Part shown: piece after piece, positions 37,321-62,982 of the stretch
Layout: every line of letters begins with the position of its first letter
Numbering within the stretch: the first letter of the stretch is position 1
DNA from: Maritimibacter sp. HL-12
GTDB lineage: Bacteria; Pseudomonadota; Alphaproteobacteria; Rhodobacterales; Rhodobacteraceae
Direction: 5' to 3'
Length of the DNA stretch: 64,000 bases
Assembly: GCF_900177545.1 (NCBI RefSeq)
Contig: NZ_FXBQ01000001.1
Span: 2,536,122-2,600,121 of the forward strand
Notes under the pieces: generated by a model
The model's input: the letters and a program-made list of their open reading frames with translations, nothing else
What the model was told of the DNA's origin: nothing
Databases searched by the model: none
Program-made: the position numbers and the translations under genes

Positions 37321-37362
37321 TTGTTCGAGGTCAAATCGCGGGTTTTGAATGTGTGGTCTAAG
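37321..37362 (+). promoter_or_regulatory. Candidate FNR-type promoter of the Mrp-Nuo operon
   Basis: A dyad TTGTT-CGAG-GTCAA at 37321-37334 matches the FNR consensus TTGAT-N4-ATCAA at 8 of 10 positions. After exactly 22 nt comes TCTAAG (37357-37362) as -10 candidate, which places the dyad at -41.5 for a start at about 37369, the class II activator position. The hydrogenase promoter on the other side of the window has the same 22 nt spacing and the same TGGTCTAAG ending. The mrpE start codon is 34 nt after TCTAAG. Confidence 0.5.
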
Positions 37363-37395
37363 CGCGGCGAGAAACGCTGAACAGGCTTCCGTTCG

Positions 37396-37920
37396 ATGAC
37401 CGACACATCACTCCCCAGGCGCGCCCCGCCGCGCCTCGCCGCGCTTCGGTTGTTCGCCACGCTCCTGGTGTTCTGGCTGATGCTGAACGGCAGCCTTGCA
37501 TCCGACGTGCTGGTGATCGGCGTGCTGGTGGCGGCCGCGATCGTGCTCCTGTTCTCCGGCAGCTTTTCGGTGCTCTCGGGCCACCGCCTCACGCCCGATG
37601 CCCTCATCGCCACGCTGCGTTTCGTTGGCCTGTTCCTGCGCGAACTGGTGCGCGCCAACATCGCCATGGCCGCGCTGGTGCTGAACCCGCGCCTGCCGGT
37701 TTCGCCCGCGCTGGTGAAGCTGCGCACCGGGCTCACCGATCCGGTGGCGCGGCTCCTGCTGGCCAATGCCATCAGCCTGACGCCGGGAACCCTCACCGTC
37801 GAGATCGCGGGCGAATGGCTTTTCGTCCACTGGGTCGTCGCCCCGACGACCGACCCGGAGGAAGCCACCCGCGCGATCGCGGCGGGCTTCGAACGTCACC
37901 TGGAGGTCATGTATGGCTGA
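37396..37920 (+). CDS. mrpE: Mrp-type antiporter subunit E homologue (MbhA-like) of the Mrp-Nuo complex
   Basis: A 174-residue membrane protein with two N-terminal helices (residues 16-33 and 36-54) and the conserved MrpE cytosolic block (NAISLTPGTLTVEI then WLFVHWV). It is the first gene of a long operon in which nearly all genes overlap. In archaeal membrane-bound hydrogenase and MBS complexes the MrpE homologue (MbhA/MbsA) is part of the ion-translocating membrane module; it is not itself a channel. Overlaps the next gene by 8 nt. Confidence 0.92.
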   Translation: MTDTSLPRRAPPRLAALRLFATLLVFWLMLNGSLASDVLVIGVLVAAAIVLLFSGSFSVLSGHRLTPDALIATLRFVGLFLRELVRANIAMAALVLNPRLPVSPALVKLRTGLTDPVARLLLANAISLTPGTLTVEIAGEWLFVHWVVAPTTDPEEATRAIAAGFERHLEVMYG

Positions 37921-38176
37921 TCCCTTTCTCCTCGCGGCCACCGCGCTGGTGGCGCTGGCGCTGGGCCTCGGGCTTGCCCGCTTCCTGCGCGGCCCCCGTG
38001 CGCTTGACCGGGTGGTCGCGTTCGACGGGCTCACCATCGTGTCGGTCGCGGCCATCGCGCTGGCCGGGCTGGTGACTGGCCGGGCGATCTATCTCGACGT
38101 GGCCCTGGTTTATGCGCTGCTGTCGTTCCTCGGCGTGATCGTCGCGGCGCGCTACCTTGAAGGAGGCGAGCAATGA
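37913..38176 (+). CDS. mrpF: Mrp-type antiporter subunit F homologue (MbhB-like)
   Basis: An 87-residue protein with three hydrophobic helices and the conserved MrpF blocks FLRGPRALDRVVAFDGL and VALVYALLSFLGVIVAARYLE. In Mrp and Mbh structures this subunit helps form the sodium path of the membrane arm. Start at 37913 overlaps mrpE by 8 nt and its end overlaps mrpG by 4 nt (ATGA). Confidence 0.92.
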   Translation: MADPFLLAATALVALALGLGLARFLRGPRALDRVVAFDGLTIVSVAAIALAGLVTGRAIYLDVALVYALLSFLGVIVAARYLEGGEQ

Positions 38177-38514
38177 GCGGGGTGCTCGACATCCTCGGCG
38201 GGCTGCTCATGGTGGGCGGTGCCGCCTTCCTCGCGCTTGGCGGGCTGGGCCTGTGGCGGATGCCCGACACCTACACCCGCATCCAGGCCGGCACCAAGGC
38301 CACCACGCTCGGCACGCTGCTCACGCTCGCGGGCATCGGGATGATCGAACCCGGGTGGGCGCTCAAGCTCGCGCTGATCGTGCTGTTCCTGATGTTCACC
38401 AACCCGCTGTCGAGCCAGGTGATGGCGCGCGCCGCGCATCGCGCAGGCGTGCCGCTCACGCCGCAGAGCCGCGGCGATGCGCTGGCCGACGACGAGGGGA
38501 GGGCCGCCGAATGA
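38173..38514 (+). CDS. mrpG: Mrp-type antiporter subunit G homologue (MbhC-like)
   Basis: A 113-residue protein with three helices and the MrpG signature LGGLGLWRMPDTYTRIQAGT, KATTLGTLLTLAGI and FLMFTNPLSSQVMARAAH. It completes the E-F-G set of the sodium-translocation unit. The hydrophilic tail (PLTPQSRGDALADDEGRAAE) is longer than the core needs. Overlaps the next gene by 4 nt. Confidence 0.93.
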   Translation: MSGVLDILGGLLMVGGAAFLALGGLGLWRMPDTYTRIQAGTKATTLGTLLTLAGIGMIEPGWALKLALIVLFLMFTNPLSSQVMARAAHRAGVPLTPQSRGDALADDEGRAAE

Positions 38515-38768
38515 CGCTTGCGCTGCTCGCTACCTCCGGCTTCGCCGCCGCCATGCTGATCGCCGCGCTGGTGGCCGTCGTCACCCGCAACACCGCCGTG
38601 GCCGTGCTTTCGGCGGGGCTGGTGAGCCTGTTTGCCTCGGTGCTTTTCCTGTTCCTCGCCGCGCCCGACGTGGCGATGACCGAGGCCGCCATCGGCTCGG
38701 GGCTGACCACCTTCCTGTTCTTCTTCGTGCTGGGCCGGATCCGGCGGGAGGGAAGCGATGAACACTAG
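38511..38768 (+). CDS. Small MbhD-like subunit (DUF4040 domain)
   Basis: An 85-residue, three-helix protein that matches the DUF4040/MbhD domain, which corresponds to part of the MrpA C-terminus: TRNTAVAVLSAGLVSLFASV followed by FLAAPDVAMTEAAIGSGL. The acidic AAPDVAMTEA segment is a conserved in-membrane feature of MrpA/MbhD. Its presence as a stand-alone gene, with no full MrpA in the operon, points to the Mbh/Mbx type of complex instead of a free Mrp antiporter. The start overlaps mrpG by ATGA; the end overlaps the next gene by 11 nt. Confidence 0.88.
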   Translation: MTLALLATSGFAAAMLIAALVAVVTRNTAVAVLSAGLVSLFASVLFLFLAAPDVAMTEAAIGSGLTTFLFFFVLGRIRREGSDEH

Positions 38769-39474
38769 GTTTTCCATCCGACACGCCGCCGTTCTGGGGC
38801 TGCTCGCGCTCCTTGGCCTCGCCTTCTGGACCCTGCTCGCGGGCTACACCCCCGATGCGGAACTGAACCGCACCGCCGCCTATTATGCCGAGAACACCGC
38901 CCGCGAGACCGGGGCGCAGAACATCGTCACCGCGATCATCGTCACCTACCGGGGCCTCGACACGCTGGGCGAGGTGACCGTGCTGTTCCTCACCGCGGCG
39001 ATCGTGGCGCTGGTGCTGGGCCAGTCGAAGGCACCCCGGGGCGGCACCGGGTCGGGCTTCCTGCCCTCGGGCGAATTGCTCACCACCGGCACGCGGATGC
39101 TCCTGCCGATCATCCTCCTGTTCGGCGCCTATGTCGCGTTGAACGGCCACCTGACGCCCGGCGGCGGCTTCCAGGGCGGGGCGATCCTTGCCTCGGGGAT
39201 GCTTCTGATGCTGCTCGCCGATCCGGCCCGCCGCTTTGGCCACCGGCTGATCGCCCGTGTCGAGAGCGTCTCGGGCCTCGCCTACGTTGCCATCGGCGTG
39301 CTCGGCGTGGCGCTCGCGGGCGGCTTTCTCGACAACCGCATCCTGCCGCTCGGCGAGTTCGGCGCGATCCTCTCGGCCGGCGCGATCCCGCTGATCTACG
39401 CGCTCGTCGGCCTCAAGGTGGGGGCCGAGTTCAGCTCGATGCTCGAAAGCCTCGAAGAGACGGAGGATTCCTGA
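38758..39474 (+). CDS. MbhE-MnhB (MrpB-like) fused subunit
   Basis: A 238-residue membrane protein combining an MbhE-type N-terminal part (residues 1-90, with NIVTAIIVTYRGLDTLGEV, the conserved MrpA-tail motif) and an MnhB/MrpB domain (about 100-230, with LLPIILLFGAYVALNGHLT, PGGGFQGGAILAS and a final SMLESLEETEDS tail). In Pyrococcus these functions are split between MbhE and MbhF; here they are one chain. No signal peptide; six or seven helices predicted by eye. A 1 nt overlap (TGATG) joins it to the next gene. Confidence 0.88.
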   Translation: MNTRFSIRHAAVLGLLALLGLAFWTLLAGYTPDAELNRTAAYYAENTARETGAQNIVTAIIVTYRGLDTLGEVTVLFLTAAIVALVLGQSKAPRGGTGSGFLPSGELLTTGTRMLLPIILLFGAYVALNGHLTPGGGFQGGAILASGMLLMLLADPARRFGHRLIARVESVSGLAYVAIGVLGVALAGGFLDNRILPLGEFGAILSAGAIPLIYALVGLKVGAEFSSMLESLEETEDS

Positions 39475-39830
39475 TGCATCTCGTCGCCATGGCCGCCGGT
39501 TTCGCGCTCATCCTGATGGGGCTCTTCGCAGCCCTCACCCATCGCAACATCCTGCGCATGATCGTGGGCTTCACGCTCGCCAACACCGGGGTGCACGTGG
39601 TGCTGGTGTCGGTGGGCTACATGCCGGGGCGGGCCGCGCCGATCCTTGACGATGCCGTGCCGGTGGCCGAGGCCGCCGCGCGGATCATCGACCCGGTGCC
39701 GCAGGCGCTCGTGCTCACCGCCATCGTCATCGGTCTCGGGATCACCGCGCTGATGCTCGCCTATGCCTACCGGCTGTTCCGCGCGCGCGGCAGCCTCGAC
39801 ATCGCCGACTACACGGAGCTGAAATGGTAA
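39474..39830 (+). CDS. mrpC: Mrp-type antiporter subunit C homologue (NuoK/MbhG-like)
   Basis: A 118-residue protein with three helices resembling MrpC/NuoK. Conserved stretches: GLFAALTHRNILRMIVGFTL, ANTGVHVVLVSVGYMPG, and PVPQALVLTAIVIGLGITALM with the following AYAYRLF. In complex I and Mrp the equivalent subunit sits between the large antiporter subunits and the NuoH side and provides part of the proton axis. Overlaps the next gene by 7 nt. Confidence 0.92.
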   Translation: MHLVAMAAGFALILMGLFAALTHRNILRMIVGFTLANTGVHVVLVSVGYMPGRAAPILDDAVPVAEAAARIIDPVPQALVLTAIVIGLGITALMLAYAYRLFRARGSLDIADYTELKW

Positions 39831-42800
39831 GCGCGATCTTCATCATCGCCGCCGGTCTCGGCGCGGGCTTCCTCATCGGGCTGTTGCGCGAAGACCAGAA
39901 GGGCGCGGCCTTCACCGTGGCACTGGCGGCACTCGGCTTCATGGCGTGGGTGTCGGTGTCGTGGTTCGTGGCACTCGCCAGCGGCACTGCTGCCCCGCAG
40001 GACATCATCACCGCCGGCACCCAGCCGCCCTTCGCGATCAACCTGCGGATGGGGCTGGCCGAGGCGGGGTTGCTCTCGGTCATCACCCTCACCGGGCTGC
40101 TCTCGCTCGTCTACATGGCGCCTGCGCTCCGTGCGCTCGGGCGGCGGGCCCTCGCGGTGCTGGTGATCCTCGTGATGGCGCTTTCGGGCCTCGTGCTCAC
40201 CCGCGACATCTTTAACCTCTTCGTCTTTTTCGAACTCGTCGTGATCGCCACCGGCGGCCTCGTGCTGCTCTCGGACGACAAGCGCGCGGTGGCGGCGGGG
40301 TTCAAATATCTCGTGGTCAGCCAGATCGTGGGCATCCTGCTGTTGATCGGGATTATCTTTGTCTATCACGCCAACGGATCGCTCAACATCGACGATATCG
40401 CCGCCCAGCCGATGGGTTTCACCGGGGCGGGGCTGGCGCTGTTTCTCCTGCTGATCGCGCTGGTGGTCGAGCTCAAGCCCTTCCCCGCCAACGGCTGGGC
40501 ACTCGACATCTATGAGGCCGCCCACCCGGGGGTGTCGGCGCTGGTCTCCGCCGCTTCGGCCACCGCTGCGCTCTACGCCGCCGACAAGCTCTTCGCCGCC
40601 GCCGGGCCCGACTGGCTGCCGCTGGCCACCGTGCTGGGCCTCGTGAGCTTTCTAGGGGCCAACCTCCTCGGCCTCGCGCAGCGCAATGACCGCCGCTTGC
40701 TGGGCTATTCCTCCATCGGCCAGATCGGCCTCGTGCTCGTGGTGGTGGGCCAACGTGACATTCTGGGCGACGCCTATCTCTACGTCGCGGGCGGAATCCT
40801 GTTCACCCATGCCGTGGCCAAGGCGGGGCTCTACTGGATCTCCGGCCTCGTGCCGGGGCGCGATCTTGCCGACTGGGCGGTGCTGCGCACCAATCCGGTG
40901 CTGCTTTTCGCCTTCGCCGGCTTCATCGCCATGCTCTTGGGCCTGCCGCCCTTCGCGGGCTTCTACGCCAAGTGGGATCTCGCCCATGCGCTCGCGGGGG
41001 CCGATCGGCTGCCGGTGCTCGGCCTCGTGCTGCTCGGCGCGCTGATCGAGGCGGGCTATCTGTTCCGCTGGTTCGGCTTCGCGCTCAAGCGGCCCAACCC
41101 GGTGGCCTTCCCCGGCTTCTCCACCACCGGCTTCGCGGTGGTGCTGGCAGCGCTCGCGGGCGGCTGGGGGCTTGGCTTTGTTTGGGGCGCGGGCTCGGTG
41201 CATGGCAATCTCCTGCTCGCGGCACCGCTCCTCTTCGCGCTCGCCTTCCTCGTGCTCGAACCGCTCCCAGCCTGGGCCAAGAACCTCCTCGCCATCGCCG
41301 GGCTTCTGGGCTGGGTCGGCTTTCGCGCACCGGGATATGACCCTTTGCACCTCGTCTTCGCCCTCGTGATGCTGGCGGGCGGCGCGGTGATCCTGCTCGC
41401 CTCCTTTGCGGTGAAGGGCGAGCGCTTCGGCTTCTATCCCTCGGCCATGGTGATGTATGCCGGCCTTGCCCTGCTGATCGACGCGCAAACCTCGTTTCAA
41501 TTCTTCGCGGCCTGGGAGCTTCTGACCATCGGCTCCTATTTCCTGATCCTGCGGGGCAAGGAGAGCGAGCCGCATGCGCTTTCCTACATCCTGTTCTCGC
41601 TCGGCGGCGCTTTTGCCATCCTCGCGGGCTTCGCGCTGGCTTCGGGCGGCCTCCAGCCCTTTGCGCTGGACAACCTCGCCGCCATCGCCGAGGCCGGGCT
41701 GCCACTTGCCCCTTGGGTGTTCTTGCTGCTGGCCATCGGTTTTTTGACCAAGACTGCCTCGGTGGGCTTTCACATCTGGCTGCCCGGTGCCCATGCCGAG
41801 GCCGAAACGGACGTTTCGCCGATGGTGTCGGGCATCCTGCTCAAGGCCGGGCTGTTCGGGCTTTGGCTGTTGCTCATGCACATGGGCCGCCAGAGCCTGT
41901 TCGGCGTTGACCTCACCTATCTTCTGGTCTGGATCGGCGCGCTTTCGGCCTTCATCGGCGCGGTGCTGGCGATCTTTCAGGAGGATGCGAAACGCCTGCT
42001 GGCTTATTCCTCGATCAGCCAGATGGGCTACGCGCTCTTTGGGCTTGCGCTGATGAACCACCTCGGCTGGTTGCTCGCGCTGATGTTCGTCATCAACCAC
42101 TACGTCTACAAGTCGATGCTCTTCCTCGCGATCGGCGGGGTGAAGGAGCGCACGCATACCAAGCTGATGTACAAGATGGGGGGCCTGATCACGATCATGC
42201 CGTTCACCTTCGTCAGCGTGCTTGTCGGCATCATCGCGATGTCGGGCGTGCCGCCGCTTTCGGGCTTCGGCGGGCGCTGGGTGTTCTACAACGCGATCAT
42301 GTCGTCGGAAATGCGCCTGCCGGTGGTGCTGATCTTCATGTCCGGCCCGATCGCCTTTCTCTACCTGTTCCGGCTGATCCACACGATCTTCCTTGGCCAA
42401 CTCAAGGACGAGCACCGCAAGCTGAAGGAGGCCTCCGGCTGGCTCCTCGCGCCGCAGATGATCTTCGTGGCTTTCCTGATCGGCTTTGCGATCCTGCCCG
42501 GCATGGTGCTGCAAAGGGTCGACGCCTATATCGGCGGGCATTTCGGCAGCACGGCGCTGGCCTGGTCGGGCCGCAGCATCACCAGTGAATTCGGCTACTG
42601 GAACCCGGTGGCGATCATGATCGTGATCGGGGTGATCTTCGTCATCGTGCTCGCGCTTCTCGTGGCGATGAACCGCAACGCCCAGAAGGTGAAGCAATTC
42701 AACATCGTGTTCTCTGCCGAACGCCCGTTCAAGCCGCAGACCACCCACTTCGCGTGGAACTTCTTCGCCCCCTACCGCAAGGCGCTGGGCTTCCTCGAAG

Positions 42801-42961
42801 CGCCGCACGTCACCCGGTTCTGGGGCGGGATTACCGACAGCTTGCATGCCAGCGCCGATTTCACCCGCCGGATCTACACCGGCAACGGCCAGACCTACGC
42901 CGCTCAGGTGATCGTCTTCGTCGTCGCCGTCTACCTCGTCGTGCTGGGAGGGGTGTCATGA
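39824..42961 (+). CDS. Fused double MrpD/NuoN-type proton-translocating subunit
   Basis: A 1045-residue protein with two NuoL/M/N-type antiporter modules in one uninterrupted frame. Module 1 (about 1-480) keeps the helix-5 glutamate at E137 (NLFVFFELVV) and the helix-8 lysine at K333 (THAVAKAGLYW), but the helix-7 lysine position appears to be Thr247 (VSAASATAALYA). Module 2 (about 510-930) has all three: E565 (AAWELLTIG), K674 (SGILLKAGLFG) and K763 with H759 (NHYVYKSML). A hydrophilic C-terminal tail of about 90 residues follows the last helix and a RIYTGNGQTYAAQVI segment ends it. Each module alone is about the size of MrpD (490). Archaeal MBS has two separate pumps, MbsH and MbsH'. Ends by overlapping the next gene (ATGA). 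Confidence 0.9.
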   Translation: MVSAIFIIAAGLGAGFLIGLLREDQKGAAFTVALAALGFMAWVSVSWFVALASGTAAPQDIITAGTQPPFAINLRMGLAEAGLLSVITLTGLLSLVYMAPALRALGRRALAVLVILVMALSGLVLTRDIFNLFVFFELVVIATGGLVLLSDDKRAVAAGFKYLVVSQIVGILLLIGIIFVYHANGSLNIDDIAAQPMGFTGAGLALFLLLIALVVELKPFPANGWALDIYEAAHPGVSALVSAASATAALYAADKLFAAAGPDWLPLATVLGLVSFLGANLLGLAQRNDRRLLGYSSIGQIGLVLVVVGQRDILGDAYLYVAGGILFTHAVAKAGLYWISGLVPGRDLADWAVLRTNPVLLFAFAGFIAMLLGLPPFAGFYAKWDLAHALAGADRLPVLGLVLLGALIEAGYLFRWFGFALKRPNPVAFPGFSTTGFAVVLAALAGGWGLGFVWGAGSVHGNLLLAAPLLFALAFLVLEPLPAWAKNLLAIAGLLGWVGFRAPGYDPLHLVFALVMLAGGAVILLASFAVKGERFGFYPSAMVMYAGLALLIDAQTSFQFFAAWELLTIGSYFLILRGKESEPHALSYILFSLGGAFAILAGFALASGGLQPFALDNLAAIAEAGLPLAPWVFLLLAIGFLTKTASVGFHIWLPGAHAEAETDVSPMVSGILLKAGLFGLWLLLMHMGRQSLFGVDLTYLLVWIGALSAFIGAVLAIFQEDAKRLLAYSSISQMGYALFGLALMNHLGWLLALMFVINHYVYKSMLFLAIGGVKERTHTKLMYKMGGLITIMPFTFVSVLVGIIAMSGVPPLSGFGGRWVFYNAIMSSEMRLPVVLIFMSGPIAFLYLFRLIHTIFLGQLKDEHRKLKEASGWLLAPQMIFVAFLIGFAILPGMVLQRVDAYIGGHFGSTALAWSGRSITSEFGYWNPVAIMIVIGVIFVIVLALLVAMNRNAQKVKQFNIVFSAERPFKPQTTHFAWNFFAPYRKALGFLEAPHVTRFWGGITDSLHASADFTRRIYTGNGQTYAAQVIVFVVAVYLVVLGGVS

Positions 42962-43863
42962 GCTTTGAATGGGTCCAGATCGCCTATGCCGCGCTCACCG
43001 TCTTCATCGTCATCAACTACGGGCTGATCATGACCGCGGTGGTGCAGAAGATCGGCGCGCGGGTGGGCGGGCGCTACGGCATCCCGGTTTGGCAGAACTA
43101 CATCGACCTCGTGAAGAACATCGCCCTGCGCTCGAAGATCAGCCACGGCGTGATGTTCTACCTCGGCCCGGTGTTCCGCCTCACCGGCGGCATCGGGCTT
43201 CTGCTCTTCGTGCCGACGATCTACGGCTCGGTGATGCATCAGAACTTCGCCTTCGCGGGCGATCTGATCCTTGCGCTCTACTTCGTGTTTTTCGGCACCC
43301 TCGGCATGGCGCTGGGGGCCGGCGAGAGCGGCCACCCGCACGCGGCCATCGGGGTCTCGCGGGGCCTCGCGCAGGTGACTGCCGCCGAACTGCCTCTGGC
43401 GCTCGCCGTCTTCGCGATCTCGCTGCAATACCAGACGCTCAGCATCACCGAGATCGTCGCCGCCCAGCAGGGGGGGCTGTTCAACTGGACGCTGTTCACC
43501 AACCCGATCGCCACGCTTGCGGCGATGTTCGCCCTCGTCGGCACGATGATGCGCGCGCCCTTTGACGTGGTGGTGGCACCGCAGGAAATCCCGATCGGTC
43601 CGCCGACCGAATACCACTCGGCCTATCTCGCGCTGATGCAGACCAACCGGGTGCTGTTCCCGGTGGCGAAAACCGTCATCTACATGAACCTGTTCTTCGG
43701 CGGGGCCTCGAACTGGGGTGAATTCGCCGTGAAGGTCTTCGCGATCTACATGGTCTCGGTGCTGGTCGGCGTGGTGCATCCGCGCTTCCGCGTCGAGCAG
43801 TCCATCCGCTTCTTCCTCAAATGGGGCTTGCCGGTGGGCATCCTCGCAATCCTGGTGGTGTAG
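42958..43863 (+). CDS. NuoH/MbhM-like quinone- or catalytic-interface membrane subunit
   Basis: A 301-residue protein with about eight helices, equivalent to NuoH/MbhM, which joins the membrane arm to the soluble redox arm. Conserved pieces are the first cytoplasmic loop QKIGARVGGRYGIPVWQNY with the IDLVKN motif, the GAGESGHPHAAIGVSRGLAQ loop, a TAAELPLALAVFAI segment and the FDVVVAPQEIPIGPPTEYHS loop. The acidic residues of the last loop match those proposed to couple redox chemistry to pumping. Placed after the pump gene and before the NuoB-like gene, the same order as in archaeal mbh/mbx operons. Confidence 0.9.
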   Translation: MSFEWVQIAYAALTVFIVINYGLIMTAVVQKIGARVGGRYGIPVWQNYIDLVKNIALRSKISHGVMFYLGPVFRLTGGIGLLLFVPTIYGSVMHQNFAFAGDLILALYFVFFGTLGMALGAGESGHPHAAIGVSRGLAQVTAAELPLALAVFAISLQYQTLSITEIVAAQQGGLFNWTLFTNPIATLAAMFALVGTMMRAPFDVVVAPQEIPIGPPTEYHSAYLALMQTNRVLFPVAKTVIYMNLFFGGASNWGEFAVKVFAIYMVSVLVGVVHPRFRVEQSIRFFLKWGLPVGILAILVV

Positions 43864-43865
43864 CC

Positions 43866-44558
43866 ATGAAAGACATCGACAAGAGCTTCCGCAAGGACAC
43901 CGAGACGGAGTTTCCCCTGCGCGAGGAACTGAAGCCCCGCAGCGTCACCGCGCCCGACGGGCAGGTGATCGAGATCGACCCGCTGCAGGATTACTTCTGC
44001 CAGGAGCCGCCGAAGGTTCACAAGCAGAGCTACTTCAGGATCGTCGAGGATTTCTACAACTGGGCGCGGGCGCATTCTTTATGGATTCTTGGCTTCGGCA
44101 CGGGGTGTGGCGCGATCGAGATGCGCCCGCTGATGACGCCGCGTTTCGATGCCTACCGCTACGGCATCCAGTGGCGCCCGACGCCCCGGCAGGCCAACCT
44201 GCTCGTGATCTCGGGCTATCTTTCGGTGAAAACCCTCAAGCGCGCGATCCGCGCCTATGAGCAGATGCCGCAGCCGAAATACGTGGTGGGCCTCGGCTCC
44301 TGCACGATCAACGGCGGTATGTACTGGGACAGCTACAACACCATCAAGCGGCTCGACGACTACCTCCCCGTCGATCTCTACATCGCTGGTTGCATGCCCC
44401 GCCCCGAGGCGCTTCTGGCAGGCTTCATGGACCTCAAGAAGCTGATCCGAAAGGGCAAGGCGGAAGGGGCGAACAAATATGCCGAGAACTTCGACTGGTA
44501 CAAGGCAAACCAGAAGTCGGTGATCAAGGACTGGGACATGCCGGATTACAACTGGTGA
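43866..44558 (+). CDS. NuoB/MbhJ-like iron-sulfur subunit with a three-cysteine cluster site
   Basis: A 230-residue soluble subunit that should hold the last [4Fe-4S] cluster near the active or quinone site. NuoB proteins use four cysteines (a CC pair plus two); hydrogenase small subunits use CxxC plus two. Here only three are found: Cys81 in FGTGCGAIEM, Cys146 in GLGSCTINGGMYWDSY and Cys176 in IAGCMPRPEALL; the second Cys of the pair is Gly82. The site-differentiated cluster of archaeal MBS is also three-cysteine. Cys45 (QDYFCQEPP) in the N-terminal extension is an unlikely substitute. Both terminal extensions are longer than in NuoB. Start ATG at 43866, 2 nt after the previous stop. Confidence 0.9.
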   Translation: MKDIDKSFRKDTETEFPLREELKPRSVTAPDGQVIEIDPLQDYFCQEPPKVHKQSYFRIVEDFYNWARAHSLWILGFGTGCGAIEMRPLMTPRFDAYRYGIQWRPTPRQANLLVISGYLSVKTLKRAIRAYEQMPQPKYVVGLGSCTINGGMYWDSYNTIKRLDDYLPVDLYIAGCMPRPEALLAGFMDLKKLIRKGKAEGANKYAENFDWYKANQKSVIKDWDMPDYNW

Positions 44559-44559
44559 C

Positions 44560-45096
44560 ATGATGCGCGACCTTCACGACCACCTCAAAACCCGCTACCG
44601 CCTTGGCGATCTTGCCGAGCGGCGGGCCAACCTCGCCTTCGTCGATGTCGCGCGCGCCGATCTGCGCGCGCTGCTTGTCGAGCTGCGCGACGTGCACGGC
44701 TTCACCCACCTCTCGCTGCTCACGGCGGTGGACTGGATCGAGGAGGGGCGCTTCCAGCTCACCTACCTGATGAACAACCGCACCGCCAACCGCAGCCTCG
44801 GCCTGCGCGTCTTCCTTGACCGCGCCGATCCGGTGGGCGACACGATCCACGATCTCTGGCCCACCGCGGCCACCTATCAGCGCGAATTGCGCGAGATGTT
44901 CGGGATCGCTTTCCCCGGCTCGCCGAGGGTGGACGAGGAATTCATCCTCGAAGGCTGGACCGACATGCCGCCCTACCGGCGCGACTTCGACACGCTGGCC
45001 TACAGCCAGCAGACCTTCTCCGACCGCGAGGGCCGCGAAACCCACGATCCGCGCGCCCATATGGCGAAAAAACTCAACCCGGAGGGCCAGCGATGA
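44560..45096 (+). CDS. NuoC/MbhK-like subunit
   Basis: A 178-residue (or 177) soluble subunit of the 30 kDa family. Typical parts are FTHLSLLTAVDWIEEGRFQL, TYLMNN, and the C-terminal ATYQRELREMFGIAFPGSP with EGWTDMPPYRRDF. It has no cofactor motif and is a scaffold between the NuoB-like and NuoD-like proteins. Two Met codons at the start (44560 and 44563) cannot be told apart. Overlaps the next gene by 4 nt (ATGA). Confidence 0.9.
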   Translation: MMRDLHDHLKTRYRLGDLAERRANLAFVDVARADLRALLVELRDVHGFTHLSLLTAVDWIEEGRFQLTYLMNNRTANRSLGLRVFLDRADPVGDTIHDLWPTAATYQRELREMFGIAFPGSPRVDEEFILEGWTDMPPYRRDFDTLAYSQQTFSDREGRETHDPRAHMAKKLNPEGQR

Positions 45097-46271
45097 TCCG
45101 TTTCGAGCCCGACCGCAGCCAGTATCCGCAGCCCGGCGATGACGGCAAACTCGAGATCGACCTCGAAACCGGCAAGTATCTCAAGCTCTGGCACGGCCCC
45201 AACCACCCCGGCATCACCGGCAACATGAGCGTGGAACTCACGCTCTGCGGCGACGAGGTGGTGGAAGGCAAGGTTCACGTCGGCTACCTCCATCGCGGCT
45301 TCGAAAAGCTGATGGAGCGGCGGACTTTCATCCAGGTCTTTCCCATCGTCTGCCGGGTCTGCGTGCCCGAGCCCGATTTCAACGAATGGTGCTATGCCCA
45401 GGCGGTCGAGGAACTCGCCGGGATCGAGGCACCCGAGATGGCGCAGTGGACCCGCACGCTCATTCTCGAGATGGGCCGCTTCAATTCCTACATGATGGCG
45501 ATGGGCGGCATCGGCGGCGCGCTGGGCATGGGTGTGATCGGCCAGTGGATGACCTACGTGCGCGATCTCATGCTTGACCGGTTCGAGGAAATGACCGGCG
45601 CGCGCATCTACCACATGTTCATCCTGCCCGGTGGCGTGCGCGGCCACCTGCCCGAGGGCTTCGCCGGGCGTATGGAGGAGGTGCTCGCCACCGCCGAGCG
45701 GTATCTGGCGGACGTTGACAAGGCGATGTTCACGAATGCTGTCTTCAAGGCCCGCACCAAGGGTGTTGGCGTCATTGATCCTGCACTTTTCGAACCTTAC
45801 GGCGTGACCGGCCCCAATGCGCGGGCCGGCGGCGTGGCCAAGGATCTGCGCAAGGACGCGCCCTATCTGGTCTATGACCAGCTCGATTTCGAGGTGGTGA
45901 CCGAAACCGCCTCCGACATATGGGCGCGCGCCATGGTGCGCCGGCGGGATATCGACGTCTCCATCGCGCTGATCCGCCAGATCCTCGCGAAAATGCCGAA
46001 AGACGGCCCGGTGATGGCGAAGCTGCCCAACGTGCTGCACTGGAAAATTCCGCGCGGCGAAACCTACGTGGCGGGCGAAAGCTCGCGCGGCGAATACGGC
46101 TACTACCTCGTGACCGACGGTTCGGGTTATCCGCGCCGCGTCAACGTGCGCGGACCGTCCTACACCCATGCCATGGCGCTGCTCGAACACCTGATCCCCG
46201 GCACCAATATCGCCGATGTGGCGGCGCTGATGGTCTCGCTGCACACCTATCCACCCGAGATCGAGAGGTAA
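45093..46271 (+). CDS. NuoD/MbhL-like catalytic-arm subunit with a remnant CxxC
   Basis: A 392-residue protein of the 49 kDa/[NiFe]-hydrogenase large-subunit family. The HGPNHPG loop (residues 34-40) and YLHRGFEKL correspond to NuoD's active-site loop. Where a [NiFe] protein has RxCGxC, this one has IVCRVCVPEPDF, so Cys87 and Cys90 are kept. The second hydrogenase pair (DPCxxCxxH near the C-terminus) is absent: the protein ends NIADVAALMVSLHTYPPEIER. So Ni-Fe cannot be bound in the usual way. This half-remnant is neither a normal NuoD (which lacks both pairs) nor a hydrogenase. An internal GMGVIGQWMTYVRDLMLDRF helix is as in both relatives. Confidence 0.9.
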   Translation: MIRFEPDRSQYPQPGDDGKLEIDLETGKYLKLWHGPNHPGITGNMSVELTLCGDEVVEGKVHVGYLHRGFEKLMERRTFIQVFPIVCRVCVPEPDFNEWCYAQAVEELAGIEAPEMAQWTRTLILEMGRFNSYMMAMGGIGGALGMGVIGQWMTYVRDLMLDRFEEMTGARIYHMFILPGGVRGHLPEGFAGRMEEVLATAERYLADVDKAMFTNAVFKARTKGVGVIDPALFEPYGVTGPNARAGGVAKDLRKDAPYLVYDQLDFEVVTETASDIWARAMVRRRDIDVSIALIRQILAKMPKDGPVMAKLPNVLHWKIPRGETYVAGESSRGEYGYYLVTDGSGYPRRVNVRGPSYTHAMALLEHLIPGTNIADVAALMVSLHTYPPEIER

Positions 46272-46275
46272 CGCC

Positions 46276-48090
46276 ATGGGAAACTTGCGCGACGTTCTCT
46301 CCCCCTTCACCGCGTGGAAACACCTGATCGAAACCCCGGTGACGATCAGGAACCCGATCGGCCGCGAAGCCGCCGACGGCTACCGCGGTTTCCACCAGAA
46401 CGACATCGAAAAGTGCATCGGCTGCGGTTCCTGCGAAGTGATCTGCCAGAACGCGGCGATCGACATGGTGCCGGTGTCGGCCCCGGTCGACGGCGATTCG
46501 GGGCTCAGGCCCAAGATCGACTACGGGCGCTGCTGCTGGTGCGCGCTCTGCGTCGACGTCTGCATGACCGGCTCGCTGACCATGTCGAACGAATACACCT
46601 GGGTCGATGCCGACCCCGACGCCTTCCGCTTCATCCCCGGCGTCGATCCCAAGCCCTGGGACGATATGGAGAAGGGCTACCGGCGCGAGGGCGCGCGCGT
46701 GCTCACCGGTGCCGAACGGGTGGAGATGGGCGAGTTGCCCCCCGAAGCGCGGATCGACAATTTCGACGAGATCGTGGTCGGCTATACGCGCGAACAGGCG
46801 ATGATCGAGGCCGACCGCTGCGTCGAATGCGGGCTTTGTGTGGCCACCTGCCCCGCGCATATGGACATCCCCGATTACATCGCCGCGATCCGCGAGGGCG
46901 ATTACGATCTGGGCCTGCAGATCCTCTACGAGACCAACCCGTTTTCAGAGGTTTGCGGCCGGGTTTGCACGCACAAGTGCGAAACCGCCTGCGCCGCCCG
47001 CCACGAGGGCGATCCCATCGCGATCCGCTGGCTCAAGCGCCACATCGTCGACAACGTGAGCGAGGACCGGCGGCTGGAGATCGTCGGCACCCCGCAGGCG
47101 CTGCCCACCGGGCGCAAGGTGGCCATCGTCGGTGCGGGACCGGCCGGGCTCACGGCGGCCTATGATCTTGCGCGCCAGGGCCATGCGGTGACGGTCTACG
47201 AGGCGCAGGACAAGCCCGGCGGCATGATGCGCTACGGCATCCCCGAATACCGGCTGCCCTACGACGCGCTCGACCGCGATATCGCGGTGATCGCGGCGCA
47301 GGGCGTGACGATAAAAACCGGCGTTCGGATCGGGCGCGAGATCGCCATGGACAAGCTCAGGGGCGAGTTTGACGCCGTGGTGCTATCAATCGGCCTGCAT
47401 ATCGGCCGCTCCACCCGTATTCCGGGCACCGAAGGCCCGGGCGTGGAAGCCGCCATCGACCTTCTGGCCCGGATCACGGCGGGCGAGGAGGTGCCGGTGC
47501 CCGAACGGGTGGTGGTGATCGGCGGCGGCAACGTGGCGATGGATATCGCCCGCTCCATGGCGCGGCTGCAAAAACGCAAGCATGGCGCGGTGGGCGTCAC
47601 CGTCACCGCGCTGGAGGATTTCGCCCATTTCCTCGCCGACCGCGAGGAGATCGAGGAAAGCTTCGATGAGGGCATCGAGATCGTCGATGCGCGCGGGCCG
47701 CAGGAGGTGGTGCGCTACAAGTCGGGCAAGCGCAAGGGCGCGGTGAAGGGCTTGCGCACCTGGGCGGTGACCTCGATCTTCGACGGCCAGGGCCGCTTCG
47801 CCCCGCAGTACGACCAGGGCGACGAGCGGCTGCACCCCGCCGACATGGTGGTGGAAGCCATCGGCCAGGCGGCGGACGTCTCAATTCTCGGGGAAGACCT
47901 GACCGAAGCGCTGGAATGGACCCGCGGCCGCCTCGCGGTGGACCCAGCCGGGCGCAGCTCCGAGCCATGGCTCTGGGCGGCGGGCGACGCGGTGCACGGG
48001 CCCGACGTGATCACCGCCGTGGCCGATGGCCACCGGGTCGCGGCCTCTGTTGGCGCGATGCTGATGGCGATGGGGGAGGTGGCGCGATGA
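46276..48090 (+). CDS. NuoI-type ferredoxin fused to GltD/NfnB-type FAD-NAD(P)H oxidoreductase
   Basis: A 604-residue fusion likely to feed electrons from NAD(P)H into the complex. Residues 1-130 form an MbhN/NuoI-like domain with two [4Fe-4S] motifs: C47-x2-C50-x2-C53-x3-C57 and C86-x2-C89-x2-C92-x3-C96. Residues 150-600 are the flavoprotein: C182/185/188/192 (CVECGLCVATCP) and C227/231/235/239 (CGRVCTHKCETAC), the FAD site IVGAGPAGLTAAYDLA (near 285), and the nucleotide site VVVIGGGNVAMDIARSM (near 412). The final GDAVHGPDVITAVADGHRVA is the FAD-closing motif. Such modules in glutamate synthase, NfnB and dihydropyrimidine dehydrogenase use NADPH or NADH. There are no NuoE/F/G genes here. 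Electron flow direction and NADH versus NADPH are not determined. Confidence 0.9.
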   Translation: MGNLRDVLSPFTAWKHLIETPVTIRNPIGREAADGYRGFHQNDIEKCIGCGSCEVICQNAAIDMVPVSAPVDGDSGLRPKIDYGRCCWCALCVDVCMTGSLTMSNEYTWVDADPDAFRFIPGVDPKPWDDMEKGYRREGARVLTGAERVEMGELPPEARIDNFDEIVVGYTREQAMIEADRCVECGLCVATCPAHMDIPDYIAAIREGDYDLGLQILYETNPFSEVCGRVCTHKCETACAARHEGDPIAIRWLKRHIVDNVSEDRRLEIVGTPQALPTGRKVAIVGAGPAGLTAAYDLARQGHAVTVYEAQDKPGGMMRYGIPEYRLPYDALDRDIAVIAAQGVTIKTGVRIGREIAMDKLRGEFDAVVLSIGLHIGRSTRIPGTEGPGVEAAIDLLARITAGEEVPVPERVVVIGGGNVAMDIARSMARLQKRKHGAVGVTVTALEDFAHFLADREEIEESFDEGIEIVDARGPQEVVRYKSGKRKGAVKGLRTWAVTSIFDGQGRFAPQYDQGDERLHPADMVVEAIGQAADVSILGEDLTEALEWTRGRLAVDPAGRSSEPWLWAAGDAVHGPDVITAVADGHRVAASVGAMLMAMGEVAR

Positions 48091-58395: not shown

Positions 58396-59694
58396 CTACG
58401 CCCGGTCGATGGTCAGATCGAGAAAATGCGTGGCACACGAGATGCAGGGGTCGTAGTTGCGGATGGTCTGCTCGCAGAGCCACTGGATTTCCTCGTGCGG
58501 CCGGTCAAGTTCATCGGCGATCAACTCGGCGAGGTCTTCCTCGATCGAGGGCTGGTTCTGCGCCGTCGGCGGCACGATCTGGGCCGTGGCGATGCTGCCG
58601 TCTTCCTCCAGGGTATACTGGTGAAACAGCATGCCCCGCGGTGCTTCGCTCGCGCCCATCCCGGTGCCCGCGCGCGGGGTGATCGCCACCGCCGCCGGGT
58701 CGAACTCCTCGTAGTCCTCGATCAGCCGGATCGCCTCTTCCACCGCGAACAGGCTTTCCACCGCGCGTACCACGATGGAGCGGTAGGGGTTCTTCACCTC
58801 GCGGCCCAGCCCTGCCCGCACCGCTGCCGCCTTCGCCCGCTCGGAGAGCTTTTCGTAGGCAAGGTTGTAGCGCGGCAGCGGGCCGGTGAGATAGGCCCCG
58901 CCCGCCTTGGTGCGGCCCTGCAGCGCGTTCGACTGCTTCACGTGGTGCTCGTCGAAATGGTCGTTGAAGGCGGTCGCCGGGATATCCAGCCCCCGGTTCG
59001 AGATCAGCCGCGTGCCCTCGTACATCGGGTAGAGCCCGTTCGGCTCCTCGATGCAGACCATGTGGTAGTCGCGTTCCTTGTCGGGGAAGGGCAGCGACGC
59101 GGTAAAATCGACGAAGGCCTCCGCCATGTCGAGCGCGCGCATCAGCTCTTCGCGCAGGGCCAGCATGTCGCGTTTCTTCGGCGCTTTCCACCAGCCGCCG
59201 ACCTTCACGTTGATCGGGTGGATCTCGCGCCCGCCGAGGAGGGTGACGATGGCATTGCCGATCTTCTTGTAGTCGAGCGCCAGTTTCACCGTGGCGGCGT
59301 GGCCGTCATTGGCCATGTCGATGGCGCTGGCGTAGCCGAGGAAATCGGGCGCGTGCAGCATCGCGGCGTGCAGGACGTGGCTCTCGATCCACTCGCCGCA
59401 ATAGAGCATCCGGCGCAGATCCTTGATCGGCTGGCTCACCTCCACCCCCAGCGCCATCTCCATCGCCTGCACCGAAGACATCTGGTAGGCCACCGGGCAG
59501 ATGCCGCAGATCCGCGCGGTGATGTCGGGGGCCTCGGAATGGTCGCGCCCGCGCAGGAAGGCCTCGAAGAATCGCGGCGGCTCGAAGATGCGAAACTCCG
59601 TGGCGGTGATCCTGCCGTCCCGCACCACCACCTTGAACGCCCCCTCGCCTTCGACGCGGGCGAGCATGTCGACCTTGATCGTGGTGTCAGTCAT
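58396..59694 (-). CDS. hydA: Group 3b [NiFe]-hydrogenase large subunit
   Basis: The 432-residue catalytic subunit holding the Ni-Fe(CN)2CO centre. Ligand motifs are intact: R61-I-C63-G-I-C66-PVAY near the N-terminus and D415-P-C417-I-S-C420-ATH423 at the C-terminus. Nine residues follow His423, the extension removed by the maturation protease. The PVAY form of the first motif and the small size (432) are those of the soluble NADP-linked 3b enzymes (Pyrococcus sulfhydrogenase alpha). The ATG at 59694 overlaps the hydD stop by 8 nt. The enzyme is expected to interconvert H2 and NAD(P)H; sulfur reduction is also known for some members. Confidence 0.95.
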
Positions 59695-60460
59695 GGGCCT
59701 TGGCCTCCTCGCGGAACGCGGGCGCGTTGGTGTTGAAGGTGGCGTAGAGCCGCTTGATCTGCCGCCGGTCGGCGCCGTTCTCGGCCAGCCGGGCGGAAAG
59801 CGACGCGGTGTTGGGGGTTTCCTTCGGGCCGAAGCAGCCGTAGCAGCCGCGGGCATAGCCCGGGCAGAGCGCGCCGCAGCCGGCGTGGGTGACCGGGCCG
59901 AGGCAGGGCTTGCCCTCCGCCACCATCACGCAGACATGGCCAGCCATCTTGCACTCGATACAGGTGGCATGGGCCGGGGTCTGCGGCGCGCGGCCCGCCA
60001 GCGTGGCGGCGATCAACTCGATCAGGTGGGTTTTCGAGATCGGGCAGCCGCGCAACTCGAAATCGACCTTCACGTGGTCCGAGATCGGCGTCGCGGTGTC
60101 GAGCGTGGTGATGAACTCGGGGTGGGCATAGACCGCGTCGATGAAATCCTTCGTCGAAGCGCCGTTCTTCAACGCCTGGATGCCGCCCGAGGTGGCGCAG
60201 GCCCCGATCGTGATCAGCGTGGTCGAGCGGGCGCGGATATCCTTGATCGCCTCGGCCTCGTGCGGCGTGGTCACGCTGCCCTCGACAAAGGAAATGTCGT
60301 AGTTGCCACCATCGTCGTCGCGCCGGGTGGCCTCGGGGAAATAGGCGATCTCGATCGCGTTCGCGACCGCCAGCACCTCGTCTTCGCAATCGAGCAGCGA
60401 TAGCTGGCAGCCATCGCAGGACGAGAACTTCCACACCGCGAGCCTTGGTCTGCCGGTCAT
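59687..60460 (-). CDS. hydD: Group 3b [NiFe]-hydrogenase small subunit
   Basis: The 257-residue iron-sulfur subunit (delta) carrying electrons from the Ni-Fe centre. Proximal-cluster ligands start with C15-D-G-C18 (SSCDGC), then [10 protein letters not shown] and [12 protein letters not shown]; further Cys motifs are [11 protein letters not shown] and [20 protein letters not shown] with CYGCFGPKE, giving three clusters. No signal peptide, as expected for a cytoplasmic enzyme. One nucleotide separates its start from the hydG stop at 60462. Confidence 0.94.
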
Positions 60461-60461
60461 C

Positions 60462-61298
60462 TCACAGCTCCTTGATGCGCATCAGCGGCTTCATCGTGGC
60501 CCAGTCGAACACCGGGCCATCCTTGCAGACGAAGACCGGGCCGAGCTGGCAGTGCCCGCACAGCCCGATGCCGCACTGCATGTTGCGCTCCATCGACAGG
60601 TGAATGTCGGTTGCGGCGACGCCGAGATCGGTGAGCCCGTCCGCCCCGAAACGCATCATGATTTCCGGGCCGCAGACGAAGGCGGTGGTGTTGGCGGGGG
60701 TGAAATCCGCCCCGCGCAACAGCGCCGTGACCACGCCGACATGGCCGTGCCAGGCATTGGTGGCCCGGTCCACCGTCACTTCCACCCCCATGTCGAGCCG
60801 CGAGCGCCAATCGCCCAGTTCCTTCTCGAATAGGATCTCGGCGGGGCTGCGCGCGCCGTAAAGCAGGGTGACCTTGCCGTAGGCATCGCGGTTTTCCATC
60901 AGCTCGTAGAGGATCGGCCGCACCGGGGCGAGGCCGAGCCCGCCGGCGATCACCACCACGTCGCGCCCGCGCGCCGCCTGCACCGGCCAGGGCGCACCAT
61001 AGGGGCCGCGCAGCCCGAGCACCGCGCCGGGCGACAGCGCTGCGAGCGCATGGCTCACCGGGCCCACGTCGCGGATCGTGTGGATGATCCTGGTGGTGTC
61101 GGAGACCGGCCCCGAGATCGAGATCGGGATCTCGCCCACCCCGAAAACGGAGAGCATGTTGAACTGCCCCGGTGCGAAGCCCGGCCAGCCTTCCACCTCC
61201 ATCTCGAAGGTGACCACGTCGGACAGCTCGCGGGTCCGGCCGGTGACTCTCGCAATCACCGGTACCATCGGGTCGGTATGGGGATCAGGTGCGTGCAT
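60462..61298 (-). CDS. hydG: Hydrogenase FAD/NAD(P)-binding diaphorase subunit
   Basis: A 278-residue ferredoxin-reductase-like subunit (gamma) that passes electrons to NAD(P). FAD-binding region [20 protein letters not shown], nucleotide-binding [16 protein letters not shown] and the VCGPEIMM block. The C-terminus carries a [2Fe-2S] motif [17 protein letters not shown]. Group 3b HydG proteins couple H2 to NADP(H), in some cases NAD(H). Overlaps the CNMP-domain gene by 14 nt. Confidence 0.93.
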
Positions 61299-61752
61299 CG
61301 TAAAGGTCCAACATCTGCACCCGCGTGTCGTGGAGCCGGTCCACCAGCGCGGGCAGGATCTGTTTCATCACCGCGTAGCCGAGGGCTGGGTCGGTGTCGC
61401 ATTTTCCGCGCAGGCAGGTCGCGTCGAAGGCAATGGCGCGGGTGTCTTCCTTCGCGTGGGCGTCGAAGCGCCAGCGGTAGGGCGGCACCAGCCAGCTCAG
61501 GCCGATCACGCCGCCGCCGCCGACGGTCTGGAACACCATCCGGCCGTGTCCCGGGGCCGAGATTTCCAACGCGACGTGGCCGTCGCGCACGAGGTAGAAT
61601 TGATCGGCGTCGTCGCCCTCGTGAAACAGGTAGCTATCGGCGGCAAAGCGTGTGTTTTTTGCACAACCCGCCAGCATGTCGAGAAAGGCCGGCGATAGAT
61701 TGCTGAACAGCGGATGCGCCGCAAGGATGCGCTGAAGTCCTTCGATCGCCAT
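61285..61752 (-). CDS. Cyclic-nucleotide-binding (CRP-fold) protein without a DNA-binding domain
   Basis: A 155-residue protein that is mainly one cNMP-binding barrel (residues 10-120: [55 protein letters not shown]) and then a dimerisation helix. It ends where the helix-turn-helix of CRP/FNR would begin, so it cannot bind DNA by itself. Position between hydB and hydG in a hydrogenase operon suggests it binds the enzyme or senses a ligand for it. The phosphate-binding cassette is degenerate (no clear RxA), so a cyclic nucleotide may not be the ligand. Confidence 0.85.
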
Positions 61753-61753
61753 C

Positions 61754-62866
61754 TCAGCCCCCTTCCTTGCGCAGCGCCGCCGCTTCCTCGGTGATGTCGA
61801 TCCCGACCGGGCACCACGAGATGCAGCGCCCGCAGCCGACGCAGCCCATCTCGCCGAACTGGTCGACCCAGGTGGCGAGCTTGTGCGTCATCCACTGGCG
61901 GTAACGTGATTTCGCGCCCGGGCGCACCGCGCCGCCGTGGACGTGGCTGAAATCGACGGTGAAGCACGAGGCCCAGGAGTTCACCCGCTCGGTTTCGGGG
62001 CCGTCGAGGCTGGTTACCTCGTCGACCGTGGTGCAGAAGCAGGTGGGGCAGACCATGGTGCAGTTGGCGCAGTTGAGGCAGCGCTGGGCCACCTCCGACC
62101 AGCGCGGATGATCGGGCCGCTCCTTGAGCAGCGCGGGCAGGCCCTCGGTGTCGATCCGGCGCTGCTGGTCACGGGCGCGGTCGATCCCCGCCTCTGCCGC
62201 GCTTTCGTCGTCGGTCGTGGCGGGCCGGGTCGGCAGGGTCGCCAGCAGGGCCAGGCCCTCGTCGCTCGCGGCCTCGGCGAGGAAGCGGCCGCCGTCAAGC
62301 TCGGTGAGCGCGATATCGTAGCCCTTCGTGGCCTTTGGCCCGGTGTTCATCGAGGTGCAGAAGCAGGTGTCGGCCGACCGCGTGCAATTCACCGCGACGA
62401 TAAACAGGTTTGCCCGCCGCGCGGCATAATGCGGATCGCGGTAGGGCCCTTCGATCAACACCCGGTCCTGCGCGGCGATGGCGGCAAGATCGCAGGCCCG
62501 CGCCCCGATGAAGGCGCGGCGGGTTTCGTCGAGCGGCTCGCGGATGATCTTCGTCTCCTCGCCCGTGCCCTCGGTGCGCCAGAGCGTCTGTTTCGGCGGG
62601 TGCAGGATGCGCTTCCAGCCCTGCGGGCCGAGGGTGGCCCCGAAATAGGCCTCGCCCTCTTGCCGCAGCCGGTAATGCCCGCCCGATTGCTCGTCGATCC
62701 AGCCCTTCGGAAAATCGGCGCTGGACGCAACCTCTTCGTAGACCACCGCGCCATCACGCCGGACCGGGCCGAACACCTCTCGCCCCGCGTCCGCCAGCGC
62801 CGCGATCAGCGCGTCAAGCCCTTGTGCATCGAACACCACGGGGGCTGCCGGAACCGCCCCGCTCAT
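61754..62866 (-). CDS. hydB: Hydrogenase iron-sulfur subunit (beta, 4Fe-4S)
   Basis: A 370-residue electron-transfer subunit of the 3b hydrogenase, with two ferredoxin-type [4Fe-4S] motifs in the last third, [14 protein letters not shown] and [12 protein letters not shown], plus extra Cys at [11 protein letters not shown] and WASCF. First gene of the operon; its start [13 protein letters not shown] at 62866 sits 75 nt below a TCTAAG element and an FNR-type site. In the closest family it connects the small subunit with the HydG flavin protein. The gap to the next gene is 1 nt. Confidence 0.92.
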
Positions 62867-62940
62867 GACATCACCCAGAACATAATCAGCCTCCTGCCCC
62901 CGAGGGGGCGATATCCTGTCGCGCTCACACCTTGCAGGCA

Positions 62941-62982
62941 CTTAGACCATGCGACGGGCGGGGTTTCCCTGATCCTGATCAA
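62941..62982 (-). promoter_or_regulatory. FNR-type promoter of the hydrogenase operon
   Basis: Read on the minus strand: TTGAT-CAGG-ATCAG (62982-62969), which matches the FNR consensus TTGAT-N4-ATCAA at 9 of 10 positions, then exactly 22 nt, then TCTAAG (62946-62941) as -10 candidate. This places the dyad centre at -41.5 for a start at 62934, giving a 67 nt leader to the hydB start codon. The same arrangement is present upstream of mrpE. Confidence 0.65.

Follow-up and report, generated by a model that had tools for sequence, protein, structure and literature searches.

The two sequences described here, one upstream of mrpE and the other upstream of hydB, are probably class II promoters activated by FnrL, and would serve an Mrp-Nuo operon and a sulfhydrogenase operon within a single 64,000-nucleotide stretch of Maritimibacter sp. 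HL-12 DNA (the window). FnrL is the FNR homologue of Rhodobacteraceae and carries an oxygen-labile [4Fe-4S] cluster. As oxygen falls, the dyad, whose predicted centre is at -41.5, would be occupied by an FnrL dimer adjoining RNA polymerase, which would sit with its housekeeping sigma factor on an extended -10 element (TGn plus hexamer), and transcription of both operons would thereby be activated. The sequence, its spacing, its conservation and the presence of fnrL are observed; the binding by FnrL in preference to other CRP/FNR proteins, the activation, the sigma factor used and the start sites are what we infer.

Upstream of mrpE, direct reading of the forward strand gives an FnrL-type dyad, TTGTT-CGAG-GTCAA (TTGTTCGAGGTCAA, 37321-37334), a 22-nt spacer (37335-37356) and the hexamer TCTAAG (37357-37362), with the predicted +1 at 37369. 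On the minus strand upstream of hydB, the dyad TTGAT-CAGG-ATCAG (TTGATCAGGATCAG, 62969-62982) is likewise followed by a 22-nt spacer (62968-62947) and TCTAAG (62946-62941), with the predicted +1 at 62934. Each hexamer closes a TGG-TCTAAG element, which is an extended -10 at mrpE (37354-37362, +) and extended -10-like at hydB (62941-62949, -). The sequence-only reading had described these layouts at 37321-37362 (+) and 62982-62941 (-) with both dyads at the class II FNR position, and the letters agree with it: the spacing is 22 nt in both, and the distance from the dyad centre to the predicted +1 is 41.5 at both promoters. The last nine bases of the two layouts are also identical, as had been claimed, and this shared sequence, TGGTCTAAG, occurs in the window only as these 2 copies, against 0.05 expected from shuffles. 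The genome motif scan that had been suggested as a check returned just 2 exact copies of the full composite pattern in 3.6 Mb, at mrpE and hydB, and 0 for the reversed-pattern control; this uniqueness is partly circular because the pattern had been written from the two sites themselves, and non-circular tests were therefore sought. A genome scan allowing three mismatches proved too loose and was discarded.

A symmetric FnrL matrix was built from 25 published R. sphaeroides sites (PMC2908626), and every window position was scored with it. Among the ~64,000 positions the hyd dyad ranks 2nd and the mrp dyad 4th, with scores of 16.5 and 13.2, respectively, where the reference sites span 11.2 to 24.2. 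By this independent matrix both sites are FNR dyads close to TTGAT-N4-ATCAA. The top score in the window belongs to 60472-60485 (TTGATGCGCATCAG), inside the hydrogenase operon, close to where hydG meets hydD. Across the genome we counted 31 strict TTGAYNNNNRTCAA dyads, with 2 matches for the reversed control. Over offsets 8 to 59 behind the strict dyads, 6 TAnnnT hexamers stand at exactly +22 and no other offset has more than two. The 22-nt distance is therefore the one that class II FNR promoters of this genome use, and sharing it assigns the two operons to a promoter class without linking them to each other in particular. The same spacing recurs behind the dyads that precede ccmC-like, polyphosphate kinase 2-like and cytochrome c peroxidase-like genes, so the proposal that it ties the two operons specifically is not sustained. 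Genes downstream of the dyads examined, identified from their translations without database search, include ccmC-like, polyphosphate kinase 2, cytochrome c peroxidase and PEP synthase-like genes. The TG was also considered as a general trait of strict dyads in the genome and rejected, as it accompanies 6 of 62 oriented sites, which is within the range at other offsets.

The mrp site is conserved within the genus. mrpE is present in all 7 genus genomes examined, and its upstream region keeps the dyad, the spacing and the -10 element in every one of them next to a near-random upstream flank; in the dyad-anchored alignment of the 7 genomes, the mean pairwise identity is 0.87 for the dyad, 0.73 for the -10 element and 0.29 for the 60 bp upstream. 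The TG of the extended -10, at a constant offset, and the T, T and A of the hexamer (TnTA) are invariant in 7/7. The half-site reads TTGTT in six of the seven and TTGTC in the remaining one, whose full dyad, TTGTCCCAAATCAA, matches exactly the sequence given as the FnrL recognition site of R. capsulatus fnrL (PMC4634722). A relaxed form of the pattern finds the mrp site in 7/7 genomes and the hyd site in the 3/3 that possess hyd, with 26 matches in total versus 5 for reversed-pattern controls. Beyond the genus we see no clear retention of the mrp site: G342 lacks the dyad, Aliiroseovarius (G241) has a match that is weak and not significant, and G003 has a possible site in a different place. 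Several congeners carry a second dyad-like sequence of the TTAAC-N4-GTCAA type over the mrp -10/+1 region (L109-L112), which is degenerate in the window and possibly represents a repressor site or a second CRP/FNR site. We also considered whether the mrp dyad belongs to the upstream marR gene and set this explanation aside; the dyad is on the downstream side of marR, and marR was not seen next to mrp in those loci of relatives that were inspected.

At hydB, the dyad and the TG at the same offset are kept in four close relatives, two congeners that have hydB and two further genera, so that the TG is found in 5/5 close hydB promoters. The hexamers of the four relatives differ (TCAAGT, TCAAGT, ATCCTT and TTTTTT). 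Within the -10 element, TG and TnTA are invariant at mrp in 7 genomes, and TG alone is invariant at hyd. Since only these positions persist and the literal hexamer varies among hydB relatives, TGGTCTAAG was rejected as a regulon signature, and its identity in the two promoters loses the significance of a specific tie. On a wider scale, good FnrL-like dyads, defined by a matrix score >=13 and a shuffle p <=0.02, are present in 11/15 hydB upstream regions of Rhodobacteraceae and in 0/4 outside the family.

FnrL itself is encoded in the genome (NCBIfam equivalog NF045989, 440 bits against a cut-off of 300) and would be the protein that binds both sites. Further CRP/FNR proteins are encoded as well, some with E-x-x-S-R-like recognition helices (e.g. 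L055 and L056), and the TTGTT or TTGTC of all seven congeners departs from the TTGAY consensus, so that another member of the family could be the cognate regulator. If the sites were bound mainly by a Dnr/NnrR-type, NO-responsive CRP/FNR protein, the operons would answer NO or denitrification and not oxygen directly. Such an assignment could draw on these additional proteins, on the unusual TTGTT of the mrp half-site, and on a description according to which the Dnr site cannot be told apart from the Anr box, itself similar to the Fnr site (PMC5398030). We nevertheless consider it unlikely, because FnrL is present, the FnrL-trained matrix gives both sites high scores, and the FnrL sites listed for R. 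capsulatus include one of the TTGTC type (PMC4634722).

It is also conceivable that one or both of the sites resemble FnrL targets by chance, or that a single operon is under FnrL. FNR-like cores are fairly common, with 9 loose matches in the window versus 2.8 expected, the Aliiroseovarius genome has no significant site at the mrp or the hyd operon, and the hyd -10 hexamers are weak, being poor in two of the hydB relatives (ATCCTT and TTTTTT). However, dyad, spacing and TG are conserved where the flanks are not, and good dyads are frequent upstream of hydB in the family; we hold chance resemblance, or FnrL control of a single operon, to be very improbable. FnrL might instead act as a repressor of one operon, as it does for some genes, e.g. 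the cox genes in R. sphaeroides (PMC2908626), and the additional dyad-like sequence that overlaps the mrp -10/+1 region in several congeners would suit such a role. The -41.5 position is the geometry of an activator, though, and the second mrp site is degenerate in this genome, so we give this possibility hardly any credence. Activation by FnrL at both promoters is the best supported of these interpretations.

The mrpE promoter precedes an MBS/Mbx-like Mrp-Nuo operon (37396-48090, +), which was delineated with Pfam and NCBIfam and encodes, in order, MrpE, MrpF, MrpG, a 94-aa ORF, an MbhE/MnhB fusion, MrpC, a double Proton_antipo_M protein (1045 aa), NuoH, NuoB, NuoC, NuoD and a NuoI/GltD-like flavoprotein (604 aa). 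The likeness to MBS/Mbx complexes lies in the pairing of Mrp subunits with subunits resembling NuoH, B, C and D. The best solved relative of the NuoD-like subunit is 6u8y_L (E 4e-91), and 6u8y is the membrane-bound sulfane sulfur reductase (MBS) of P. furiosus. In the last gene (46276-48090, +) a NuoI-like ferredoxin domain is joined to a GltD-like NAD(P)-binding flavoprotein; the best NCBIfam match of the product, NF010590, is under its cut-off, and the fusion suggests an NAD(P)H-linked version of the MBS/Mbx-like complex.

The hydB promoter precedes a sulfhydrogenase-type [NiFe] hydrogenase operon (58396-62866, -), assigned by Pfam, NCBIfam and translation, with the gene order hydB, cNMP-binding-domain protein, hydG, hydD and hydA. 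Homologues of HydB, G, D and A were found with a NiFe large subunit, and these matches are significant but below the NCBIfam equivalog cut-offs; by resemblance rather than phylogeny, the enzyme appears to be of group 3b type. The protein encoded between hydB and hydG (61285-61752, -) is a stand-alone cyclic-nucleotide-binding domain of 155 aa. A 6-codon leader ORF (MFWVMS; 62883-62863, -) lies behind an AGGAGG-like site and its stop overlaps the hydB start (ATGA), while equally placed short ORFs occur in two congeners (MICRTS and MIWISS; L114 and L115). The overlap and the similarly placed ORFs make translational coupling possible.

The sequence-only reading had assigned both operons to one low-oxygen regulon. 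This appears plausible on account of the conserved FnrL-type dyads, their class II position and the encoded FnrL, although the specific tie through the spacing and TGGTCTAAG does not hold. Low oxygen would then raise both modules together for reductant disposal. The prediction is that two little-studied modules of marine Rhodobacteraceae, the MBS/Mbx-like complex and the sulfhydrogenase, are made at low oxygen, which offers a testable condition for the physiology of both and suggests that they act in the same state, perhaps disposing of excess reductant. More speculatively, and in our estimation rather doubtfully, the conserved mrp TTGTTC....TCAAATC dyad and the TGAATGTGTGnTnTA element may define an FnrL promoter subtype of their own, one that would co-ordinate the MBS/Mbx-like ion-pumping oxidoreductase with the NADP-linked sulfhydrogenase in one low-oxygen electron-disposal circuit of Rhodobacteraceae.

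The promoter type is well known and the regulatory mechanism is textbook; an earlier report of such control on these operons was not found in the literature searched. Searches of that literature on FNR control of group 3b hydrogenases and on Mrp/Mbx complexes in bacteria gave no direct precedent, neither operon was found in the published FnrL target tables consulted, and the word "hydrogenase" is absent from the main text of the two regulon papers (PMC2908626, PMC4634722). Known FnrL targets include complex I nuo in R. sphaeroides (PMC2908626) and, in R. capsulatus (PMC4634722), polyphosphate kinase 2 and cytochrome c peroxidase; among target types shared with these regulons, similar dyads are found here near fnrL itself, cytochrome c peroxidase and polyphosphate kinase 2. 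The two promoters share with class II promoters of E. coli FNR and of R. sphaeroides and R. capsulatus FnrL the TTGAT-N4-ATCAA-type dyad, its predicted centre at -41.5, the 22 nt to the -10 hexamer and an encoded cognate regulator. They differ from them in the mrp half-site, TTGTT here and kept nearly so in the genus, and in the extended -10 TGn of both. The encoded complexes resemble P. furiosus MBS (6u8y) in combining Mrp with a Nuo-like module whose NuoD-like subunit matches 6u8y_L, and P. furiosus sulfhydrogenase (hydBGDA) in their HydB, G, D and A homologues, whereas the systems described here are bacterial, include the gene of a NuoI/GltD-like NAD(P)-binding flavoprotein in the operon, and are preceded by FnrL-type promoters.
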